Shown piece by piece: positions 19,512 through 20,801 of a stretch of 34,842 nucleotides of DNA. The DNA comes from a virus. Position 1 is the first letter of the stretch. The number at the start of each line of letters is the position of its first letter. The stretch is from the IMG/VR virus record IMGVR_UViG_3300043811_000028, positions 1 to 34,842 of that record; one strand, given 5' to 3'. The position numbers were made by a program, and so were the translations under genes. The notes under the pieces are model-generated. The model saw only the letters and a list, made by a program, of their open reading frames with translations, ran no database searches and had not been told where the DNA came from.

Positions 19512-19958
19512 TCAAGAATGATGTTCTTTATGGTGACACTTAGCACATAACCATCTTACATCTAATGGTTTGCTGTAATCATCATGATGAGCATGTATTC
19601 TATTAGTTTTTTCGCATTTTTCGCATGGTTCTGCTATTAACTTTCCAGACTTTATTGCGTTTCTAACAATGCGATGAACTTCAGCTTTTTCAGGATATCG
19701 AGATTCATAAATCTTTTTATATCTAACCCGATCTTTTGTTAAGCCGCCTTTCCATGCATTATTATTTTCACCTTTTGCATTAGAGCCAACTTTGTTTCCA
19801 TTAGAAATATTTAAACATTTTCTTGAACAAAACAATCCCTGTCCAACGCGAACCCTATAAGGCATTGTTTTAAAATTACCATTACAGTTTAAACATATTC
19901 TATCAACCCAGTTTTTAGTGGGCTTTCGAGGTTCATGTTTTCTAAATTTCTCTATCAT
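19512..19958 (-). CDS. HNH endonuclease, homing type
   Basis: 148 residues. The N-terminal part has a zinc-binding pair CLNC...FCSRKC (~23-50) followed by the GENNNAWKGG block typical of phage HNH homing enzymes. The C-terminal HNH core has CEKCEK (~118-123), IHAHHDDYSKPLDVRWLC and CHHKEHH, giving the Cys4 and catalytic HH of the fold. Such enzymes cut DNA at or near a phage target and spread their own gene. No strong ribosome site is visible; the RNA array directly upstream ends 12-13 bases before its ATG. Neither an intron core nor an intein is seen, so it appears free-standing. Confidence 0.85.
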   Translation of the reverse strand: MIEKFRKHEPRKPTKNWVDRICLNCNGNFKTMPYRVRVGQGLFCSRKCLNISNGNKVGSNAKGENNNAWKGGLTKDRVRYKKIYESRYPEKAEVHRIVRNAIKSGKLIAEPCEKCEKTNRIHAHHDDYSKPLDVRWLCAKCHHKEHHS

Positions 19959-19984
19959 AGCGCCGCTCGTTGCATAAAATTGGT

Positions 19985-20094
19985 GGCTCTCTAGCCATCT
20001 ATATCAATTGCTTTGATCATAGTATTCTCGGCCGAGTCAACAATCAGTAGAATCAATAAGTGACAACATACTTTCGCGCGTGTCATCGAGAGCC
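19985..20094 (-). ncRNA. RNA array domain D5 (acceptor-like stem plus ACCA)
   Basis: Closing stem GGCTCTC/GAGAGCC (7 bp, perfect), followed by ACCA at 19984-19981. Inside: TGACA/TGTCA, ATTCT/AGAAT, and a hairpin CTAT(G)ATCAA/TTGATATAG with a bulged G. Multibranched and 110 bases long, so too large for a plain tRNA, and no TTCRA T-loop is seen. Confidence 0.55.
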
Positions 20095-20104
20095 ATAAAC
20101 TGGT

Positions 20105-20170
20105 GCCCGATCTCTCTAAATCTTCATAGAAACATGTGGCCAACATTACTACTCATTAAAGAAATCGGGC
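20105..20170 (-). ncRNA. RNA array domain D4 (tRNA-sized, acceptor-like stem plus ACCA)
   Basis: Closing stem GCCCGAT/ATCGGGC (7 bp, perfect), followed by ACCA at 20104-20101. With ACCA it is 70 bases. A central hairpin ATGT(TGGCC)ACAT and TCTT/AAGA or TCTA/TAGA pairings are possible. No canonical D-loop GG, U33 or T-loop could be placed, so it is tRNA-like at the ends only. Confidence 0.55.
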
Positions 20171-20181
20171 ATAAAATTGGT

Positions 20182-20248
20182 GGCCTATTTTCCTTTGTCC
20201 GTTCTGTTTAATAGAGAGCTTCGTCCTCTCAACAAAGTATCGTCGGCC
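20182..20248 (-). ncRNA. RNA array domain D3 (GGCC stem plus ACCA)
   Basis: Closing GGCC/GGCC (4 bp; 5 of 7 if extended), then symmetrical 7-base strands, CTTTGT/ACAAAG (6 bp) and GAGAG/CTCTC (5 bp) with a 7-base loop. Followed by ACCA at 20181-20178. An elongated hairpin rather than a cloverleaf. Confidence 0.5.
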
Positions 20249-20257
20249 ATAAATCTT

Positions 20258-20380
20258 GCTGTGACTGTGTTCTCATCGTAGTTAGCTTGGAGAACTCTAC
20301 GCTATGCCTATGCATTTCGAGGCGTTACTCTCTCATCAGGCTTTAAATGCTAACCTAGACCTACCTATATCACTCACAGC
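20258..20380 (-). ncRNA. RNA array domain D2 enclosing the hammerhead
   Basis: Closing stem GCTGTGA/TCACAGC (7 bp, perfect) brackets the hammerhead ribozyme at 20281-20354. It is followed by AAGATTTAT, which resembles the TTTAT linkers after D3-D5 but lacks ACCA. Confidence 0.6.
20281..20354 (-). ncRNA. Hammerhead ribozyme, type I arrangement
   Basis: On the minus strand: stem I 5' strand GTTAGC...GC; core CTGATGA (20339-20333); stem II GAG/CTC with an 8-base loop; core GAA; stem III ATGC/GCAT closed by ATAG; then A17 and stem I 3' strand GC...GCTAAC. All core nucleotides (CUGAUGA, GAA, A15.1-U16.1, H17) are present. GTTAGC/GCTAAC gives six perfect outer pairs, with an internal loop in stem I, where hammerheads usually have tertiary contacts. 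Predicted cleavage is after A at 20303. Cleavage would separate the Tad2-like mRNA from the D3-D5 array and HNH mRNA, leaving a 5'-OH end on the latter. Stem II is short (3 bp), the main weakness. Confidence 0.85.
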
Positions 20381-20409
20381 TCGGGTAGGAAACGCTCGTT
20401 AAAATCTTA

Positions 20410-20467
20410 GGCGATAGATGCGGCTATCATATCACTCGAAGTAGTTTATGACAGGTGCACTATCGCC
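20410..20467 (-). ncRNA. RNA array domain D1 (long hairpin after the Tad2-like gene)
   Basis: GGCGATAG/CTATCGCC (8 bp) extended by TGC/GCA after a one-base bulge, then CTGTCAT/ATGATAG (7 pairs, one G-U) and a small apical stem. It begins 11 bases after the Tad2-like stop. TAAGATTTT follows, so it might act as a weak terminator or 3' stabiliser; the T-run is short and offset. No known self-cleaving core was found in it. Confidence 0.6.
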
Positions 20468-20478
20468 CATCTACACAA

Positions 20479-20757
20479 CTAAGCAGCCGTTGGCGCAGCG
20501 GGCGCTACCGGCGCAGCAGGAGGAGCAATAGCAGCACTAACAGCAGCTTGTTCTACAATCTTCCAATCTGTTGCTAAAATATCAGTCAAAGTGGAATTAC
20601 CAAAAAAGTTAGTAAGTTGTGAACTTGGTTGGTGTAATGCTTTAATAATATATTGCATGCCAGGAAGCAATACTAAATATTCTCCTGACGCTGCCCAAAT
20701 CTCACGTGCCAATAATTCACCTTGTTGTAATGCTTCAACTGCTTCTAAAAAGTTCAT
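20479..20757 (-). CDS. Tad2-like protein (DUF2829), candidate anti-Thoeris nucleotide sponge
   Basis: 92 residues. MNFLEAVEALQQGELLAREIW at the N-terminus (in its parts: a helix EALxxG then a basic-aromatic strand) and LATDWKIVE near residue 65 are the beginning and end blocks of the DUF2829/Tad2 family, typically 'F.EAL..LK.GK.V.R.GW' and 'D.LA.DW.IV'. Tad2 proteins bind cyclic ADP-ribose-type signals and block Thoeris; some also bind other cyclic nucleotides. An Ala/Pro-rich tail (~70-92) is an addition to the usual core. The second of two ATGs is preferred because AAAGGAG lies 7 bases before it. Just upstream of the RNA array. Confidence 0.7.
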   Translation of the reverse strand: MNFLEAVEALQQGELLAREIWAASGEYLVLLPGMQYIIKALHQPSSQLTNFFGNSTLTDILATDWKIVEQAAVSAAIAPPAAPVAPAAPTAA

Positions 20758-20801
20758 CATACATCTCCTTTAAGTTTAAGTTAGTCTTCCTTGATTTAAG
20801 T

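Follow-up and report, generated by a model that had tools for sequence, protein, structure and literature searches.

When short domains with acceptor-like stems and ACCA ends stand one behind another in a phage genome, the question arises whether they are tRNAs, the remains of tRNAs, or RNAs of another kind. Such a row lies in the window analysed here, a stretch of 34,842 nucleotides that is a contig of an uncultured phage, with genes for a P22-like portal, a major head protein, and a large terminase, and with most genes on the minus strand. All portals of isolated phages are less than 60% identical to that of the window (25-27% among the matches listed), and the close relatives of the window therefore come from metagenomes. 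The five domains, D1 to D5 in the order of transcription, are all encoded on the minus strand (20467-19985) and occupy the intergenic gap between a Tad2-like gene and a small endonuclease-like gene (Table 1). We propose that they are probably a tandem array of independently folding RNA modules, arranged like a tRNA operon, which would yield separate small RNAs and in which D2 would nick itself.

Table 1. Positions of the RNA array, its parts, and the two flanking genes in the window
Feature	Position	Strand	Basis or remark
Tad2-like gene, upstream of the array	20479..20760	-	Pfam PF11195, E 3e-9
Whole array D1-D5	19969..20479	-	MFE z -4.2
Possible outer helix GUUGUGUAGA / UUUAUGCAAC	20479-20470 / 19978-19969	-	energy prediction only
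D1, hairpin rod, 8-bp closing stem	20410..20467	-	z -5.8
D2, S module: double-pseudoknotted scaffold with hammerhead	20258..20397	-	match to model R1, relatives
D2 helix P2, CCUACC with GGUAGG	20389-20384 / 20365-20360	-	
D2 pseudoknot, GCUGUGA with UCACAGC	20380-20374 / 20264-20258	-	closing stem of D2 in the earlier note
D2 helix P4, GUUAGC with GCUAAC	20354-20349 / 20286-20281	-	
D2 helix P5 (crosses P4), GUUCUC with GAGAAC	20295-20290 / 20274-20269	-	read from sequence
Type I hammerhead core AAGC-CUGAUGA-GAGAGUAACGCCUC-GAA-AUGCAUAGGCAU-A-GCGU	20299..20343	-	
Predicted hammerhead cut	between A20303 and G20302	-	from core sequence
D3, GGCC/GGCC closing pairs, module A	20182..20248	-	relatives; z -3.4
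D4, long hairpin rod, GCCCGAU/AUCGGGC + ACCA	20105..20170	-	z -4.7
D5, GGCUCUC/GAGAGCC + ACCA, module B	19985..20094	-	relatives; z -1.9
D5 sequence pattern GGCUCUCGAUGAC..GCGCGAAAGUAUG..GAGAGCC	19985..20094	-	module B relatives
Linkers after D2, D3, D4, and D5: AAGATTTAT, ACCAATTTTAT, ACCAGTTTAT, ACCAATTTTAT			
Linker ACCAATTTTAT following D5	19974..19984	-	similar linkers at 20181-20171 and 20104-20095
Small endonuclease-like gene (HNH-like by eye), downstream	19512..19958	-	PHROG 2340 'endonuclease', E 2.5e-22

The gap between the two genes contains no open reading frame of at least 60 amino acids, and neither a promoter nor a terminator for the array was found above chance. The protein of the Tad2-like (Thoeris anti-defence) gene, which immediately precedes the array, has an alanine/proline-rich tail. 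In some relatives, the gap before the portal gene (L007 5592-6041, L032 5646-6041, L054 4686-5585) holds clusters of TTATCCACA-like (DnaA-box-like) repeats in place of RNA modules.

The likeness to a tRNA operon lies in the order of the modules, the short A/U-rich linkers, and the ACCA ends. An earlier note, made from the letters of the window, had described five domains closed by stems of 8, 7, 4, 7, and 7 pairs, acceptor-like stems followed by ACCA, and linkers that share TTTAT, and all of these are present. Folding of the minus strand (-155.6 kcal/mol, z -4.2) was as low in none of 100 shuffled sequences; a chain of four non-overlapping units closed by 7 bp arose in 2 of 200 shuffles, and two closing stems each followed by NCCA in only 1 of 200. 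A transcript of the plus strand was rejected as the source of the array, because it folds less stably (z -1.8) and gives no match to the S model described below. Several observations count against our proposal: neither promoter nor terminator stands out from chance, no relatives were found for D1 and D4, a 3' ACCA is not present behind every module, and thermodynamic folding by itself gives D2 no support (z -0.1 for D2 alone), the energy model being unable to score its pseudoknotted fold.

As the earlier note had held, the interiors of the domains are not those of canonical tRNAs. None of the five has a T-arm, and the check with ARAGORN that the note had suggested returned no tRNA in the array; Rfam gave no match there either. 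D1 to D5 were rejected as tRNAs, as they lack the combination of acceptor stem, T-arm, and anticodon arm and match no tRNA model. A group II intron was likewise discarded: the match to RF02004 spans only 22 nt at 11.9 bits (cut-off 34.5), domain V is missing, and the matching letters are those of stem II and GAAA of the hammerhead ribozyme that we describe next.

Domain D2 holds a complete hammerhead core, CUGAUGA-GAG..CUC-GAA-AUGC..GCAU-A. The defining segments CUGANGA ... GAAA lie at 20339-20315, AUGC..GCAU followed by A supplies the A15.1-U16.1 pair and a position 17 other than G, and stems I, II, and III are all formed, with II and III closed by loops. A hammerhead descriptor matched once in the window and in none of 300 shuffles. 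Stem I of the window is short (2 pairs, a mismatch, and 1 pair), as it is in L067, and this counts against our proposal; helix P4 extends it. None of the hammerhead models of Rfam gave a match above its cut-off, in the window or in its relatives, and Hammerhead_HH9, for example, scores 14.3 bits on the L180 core, against a cut-off of 52. We treat these sub-threshold scores as a reflection of what the models cover and not of a defining property of the hammerhead fold.

Ordinary nucleotide searching of the phage collection brought up nothing related to the window; relatives did come from exact-pattern scans of viral contigs. The first scan used a 20-base pattern from the D2 core and returned distant phages with the same surroundings; because this pattern included part of the hammerhead core, the contigs were scanned again with a pattern taken from the 3' flank only. 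L066 and several other pattern matches were discarded as chance matches in other sequence. The core is present in 46 of 52 distinct scaffolds, 7 of the 52 having come from the core-pattern scan. Of these 46, 44 have CUGANGA; the other 2 have UUGAUAA, an exchange of C3-G8 for U3-A8 that is reported from nature and from active hammerheads (Perreault et al., PMC3088659). All 46 have A15.1-U16.1, and position 17 is never G. Two variants may be mentioned here: in L119, the core has been replaced, and in L113, an extra base is inserted in CUGANGA. As far as letters and their comparison can tell, D2 carries a canonical type I hammerhead in one arm of its scaffold.

The scaffold itself consists of helix P2, helix P4 extending stem I, helix P5 running across P4, and a pseudoknot from the loop of P2 to the 3' end, and D2 has all four. 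The 7-bp stem that the earlier note had taken to close D2 is a real helix, but it forms the pseudoknot within a larger fold at about 20397-20258; the note had seen the domain and had missed the ribozyme. In relatives, the helices are kept with other letters: P2 reads CCUCUC/GAGAGG in L088 and CCUAUC/GAUAGG in L318, the pseudoknot reads UGCCCUAA/UUAGGGCA in L074 and UGCUCCA/UGGAGCA in L088, and P5 reads GUCUUC/GAAGAC in L318. In an alignment of 41 sequences, 98.7% of the helix cells are paired, against 72.1% after shuffling, and 313 double changes stand against 84 expected; the covariation score was reached by none of 500 shuffles, and sliding the helix partners cuts pairing to 32-40%. The covariance model built from these 41 sequences, with the window excluded (R1), matches the window at 20359-20281 with 44.6 bits (E 3e-11), and D2 is its sole clear match in 4 kb with the filters off. 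The window, L074, L088, L318, and L319 form a divergent branch, in which every helix is kept and the letters are changed. By these comparisons, D2 is a diverged member of an RNA family that Rfam does not include and that we designate the S family.

Not all scaffolds of this family carry a ribozyme. The scaffold occurs without any hammerhead in L101, L111, L112, L121, L127, and L195; three of these are inside tRNA arrays, and the copies in L111 and L195, which lie between tRNA genes, outscore the window with R1. The contig with the bare scaffold at L121 663-967 also has 20 tRNAs and a tmRNA gene. In another group (L103, L115, L134, L138, L148, L159, L162, L184, and L185), the scaffold is circularly permuted: it begins with the ribozyme and P5, has P1 closed into a hairpin, and ends with P2 and the 5' half of P4. 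Among cultured phages, the S module is carried by Arthrobacter phages Constance and Karkharias, Mycobacterium phage Gaia, and Enterobacter phage SDFMU_EhYP, and Pectobacterium and Dickeya phages also have the scaffold. ARAGORN places a tRNA within 350 nt of 17 of the 77 S clusters. In bacterial genomes, exact-pattern searching gave only about four real copies, and the S family is therefore essentially phage-borne.

These variants bear on the idea that the locus is a device for transcript processing, in which the hammerhead would uncouple the Tad2-like gene from the genes downstream and the other domains would be hairpins that stabilize or insulate. The array is indeed intergenic, within a run of genes on the same strand, and prophage hammerheads are known to flank genes (PMC3088659). 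However, in the standard order, the cut halves would still be held to each other by the scaffold, bare scaffolds are maintained with no hammerhead in them, and many arrays have no ribozyme at all, so that we regard such a device as unlikely.

Compared with known type I hammerheads, including those of phages and prophages (PMC3088659), the D2 family likewise has the full core, variation at N7 and H17, the exchange of C3-G8 for U3-A8, and three covarying stems. The difference is that the core of the D2 family sits in a conserved double-pseudoknot scaffold of 110 nt that also exists in ribozyme-free and permuted forms; the hammerhead of phage PaP3, for example, is without the S scaffold. Eckert et al. 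(PMC10085705) describe non-circular permutations of the hammerhead, which are another arrangement: in the S family, it is the scaffold that is permuted, around an ordinary type I core. Theta ribozymes (HDV-like, PMC10879173) are another class of self-cleaving RNA at phage tRNA genes, but they belong to a different ribozyme class and cut at the 3' end of a tRNA, whereas the predicted cut of D2 is inside the scaffold.

D3 and D5 also have relatives. Module A, represented by D3, has GGCC closing pairs, a 7x7 internal loop (GACGAUA at 20244-20238 and GAAAAUA at 20192-20186), a helix beyond this loop whose third and fourth pairs covary, and an interior of which almost every phage has its own version. 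About 40 copies are known, 26 contigs coming from one pattern; its conservation is partly imposed by that search pattern, and copies found independently before the portal gene (L013, L016, L027, L033, L043, and L051) show it too. A copy of D3 with 97% identity stands in L278 beside a different module. In other phages, 19 of the 43 matches to the module A descriptor are followed by ACCA or GCCA and 19 are preceded by TTAT, a few of the 43, with odd closing stems, being possibly chance matches. Module A had no match in 84,980 bacterial and archaeal genomes. Module B, represented by D5, is known in about 6 copies, with relatives in L009, L074, L096, L097, and L281. A third module, C, is found in 85 viral contigs (L236-L316; e.g., L078, L083, L094, and L281), its copies being put at about 65, and in no isolated phage by nucleotide search. 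It is about 80-325 nt long and combines a covarying 7-bp acceptor stem, the hairpin GGCGUG-GACAGUGA-CACGC, and a T-arm with the loop UGCAAUU, with no anticodon arm; ARAGORN does not detect it.

Modules A and B occur in mixed arrays with S, tRNAs, and module C, under similar ACCA/TTTAT punctuation. These comparisons assign D3 and D5 to two more conserved kinds of phage RNA module, and such modules are put together differently in different phages. Two other modules should be mentioned: L012, L014, L017, and L053 have GGAAGCUCAGAAAG ... CGAAGAGCCUCUGAU ... GACAGGUCUG, with a T-arm-like 3' end, just 5' of the portal gene, and L079 and L080 have a conserved GGGG(U/A)GAGAAGGG..UAGUNGNCAAAGUAAGCGUACGAUGAAAUGC..CCUCAUCCC right behind module A. 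In the literature, subscription journals and preprints being mostly outside reach and an earlier description therefore possible, we found no account of the S, A, B, and C modules.

The mixed arrays weigh on a further alternative, a single multi-domain RNA that works as a whole, in the manner of GOLLD or ROOL, instead of giving separate products. The possible outer helix would link both ends of the array, and GOLLD and ROOL are also large structured phage RNAs near tRNA islands, with unknown function (PMC12286853). That neighbourhood is the only likeness: neither GOLLD nor ROOL is matched through its Rfam model, and both were rejected as identities; the linkers are short and A/U-rich; and the modules here are small, separable, and recombining, being found also alone, in other orders, and with other partners. 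We consider a single RNA very unlikely.

We can now return to the three suggestions of the earlier note, namely, decayed tRNAs, a tRNA-mimic array, or a multi-domain non-coding RNA. A decayed tRNA cluster would account for the ACCA ends and the spacing, and degenerate and true tRNAs do lie nearby in sister phages. However, there are no tRNA matches and no T-arm with a T-loop, and D2, D3, and D5 belong to conserved, covarying families that are not tRNAs, so that decay fails for these three domains; that argument does not extend to D1 and D4, and for the cluster as a whole we give decay almost no credence. The tRNA-mimic suggestion fails for D1 to D5 themselves, but sister arrays do hold tRNA-like modules with the same ACCA/TTTAT punctuation. 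An array of several non-coding RNA domains is what the comparison with relatives supports. The note had also staked its case on homologous phages keeping closing stems or ACCA, and for D2, D3, and D5 the outcome is in its favour; D1 and D4 have no convincing relatives among the viral contigs compared.

Our proposal of separate modules has a version with a committed function, in which the array is a decoy: tRNA-like or otherwise structured baits for tRNA-cutting nucleases or for tRNA-binding host proteins, with interiors made variable by an arms race. The Tad2-like anti-defence gene adjoins the array, sister arrays include tRNA-like modules with an acceptor stem and a T-arm, and the modules are exchanged rapidly and have variable interiors. 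On the other hand, none of the five domains of the window has a T-arm or an anticodon arm, and the Tad2-like gene is directed at another type of defence system; a decoy in this strict sense appears rather unlikely. More broadly, our leading guess for the role, which we hold with considerable doubt, is that the RNAs interfere with translation in the host or with defences directed at tRNAs, given that tRNA-like modules stand in sister arrays and that a Tad2-like gene is adjacent.

The closest known parallel, in layout, is the pair RNAC and RNAD, the species 1 and 2 stable RNAs in the tRNA array of phage T4, whose role is unknown (PMC3014915, PMC9697503). RNAC (L317, T4 70908-71046) has a canonical T-arm, CCGGG-UUCGAAU-CCCGG, on its 3' side beside an imperfect acceptor-like stem; RNAD runs to GCACC followed by A, giving ACCA; and a homing endonuclease gene is present in the T4 cluster. 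The likeness consists of small structured RNAs, short linkers, ACCA (in RNAD), and an endonuclease gene nearby. The window shows the same placement in a phage RNA array with short linkers, with no true tRNA in it. The layout with a T-arm at the 3' end is common to RNAC and module C, whereas the domains of the window are without such an arm. Neither a hammerhead nor a module A loop was seen in the T4 RNAs, and the likeness between these RNAs and the modules described here is one of layout.

The existence of the array, the fold of the hammerhead, and the grouping into module families are supported by comparison with relatives, and from these we infer how the RNA might be cleaved, processed, and used. 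The array would be co-transcribed with the neighbouring genes, and the transcript would fold module by module. The hammerhead would then cut once, at the site given in Table 1, leaving a nicked D2 whose two halves the pseudoknot, P4, and P5 would hold together. Host nucleases that act on tRNA operons would cut the A/U-rich linkers and trim D3 to D5 to their ACCA ends, and the phage would make use of the stable products in the course of infection, as T4 presumably does of RNAC and RNAD. In the permuted copies, the scaffold would remain intact after the cut and gain a defined 5' end. Because of this, and because bare scaffolds exist, the lasting function of D2 is probably that of the scaffold and not of the cut; the scaffold would be the functional body and the ribozyme a device for its maturation.

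A wider and more tentative view, which we think may well prove wrong, is that modules A, B, C, and S are exchangeable RNA cassettes of phages, a hitherto unrecognised class in which the shell is conserved and the interior varies; they would follow the layout of a tRNA operon, would sometimes be matured by a hammerhead, and would act against host defence or translation, with RNAC and RNAD as the first-seen examples. RNAs of the RNAC/RNAD type in tRNA arrays have long been known without a function, and a comparatively defined family in cultured phages would make this question directly testable. The S family is large, carries its own ribozyme, and includes naturally permuted forms as well as relatives without the ribozyme, and it places hammerheads in a conserved phage setting that standard annotation has missed. 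Arrays with the appearance of damaged tRNA clusters can contain several unannotated RNA families.
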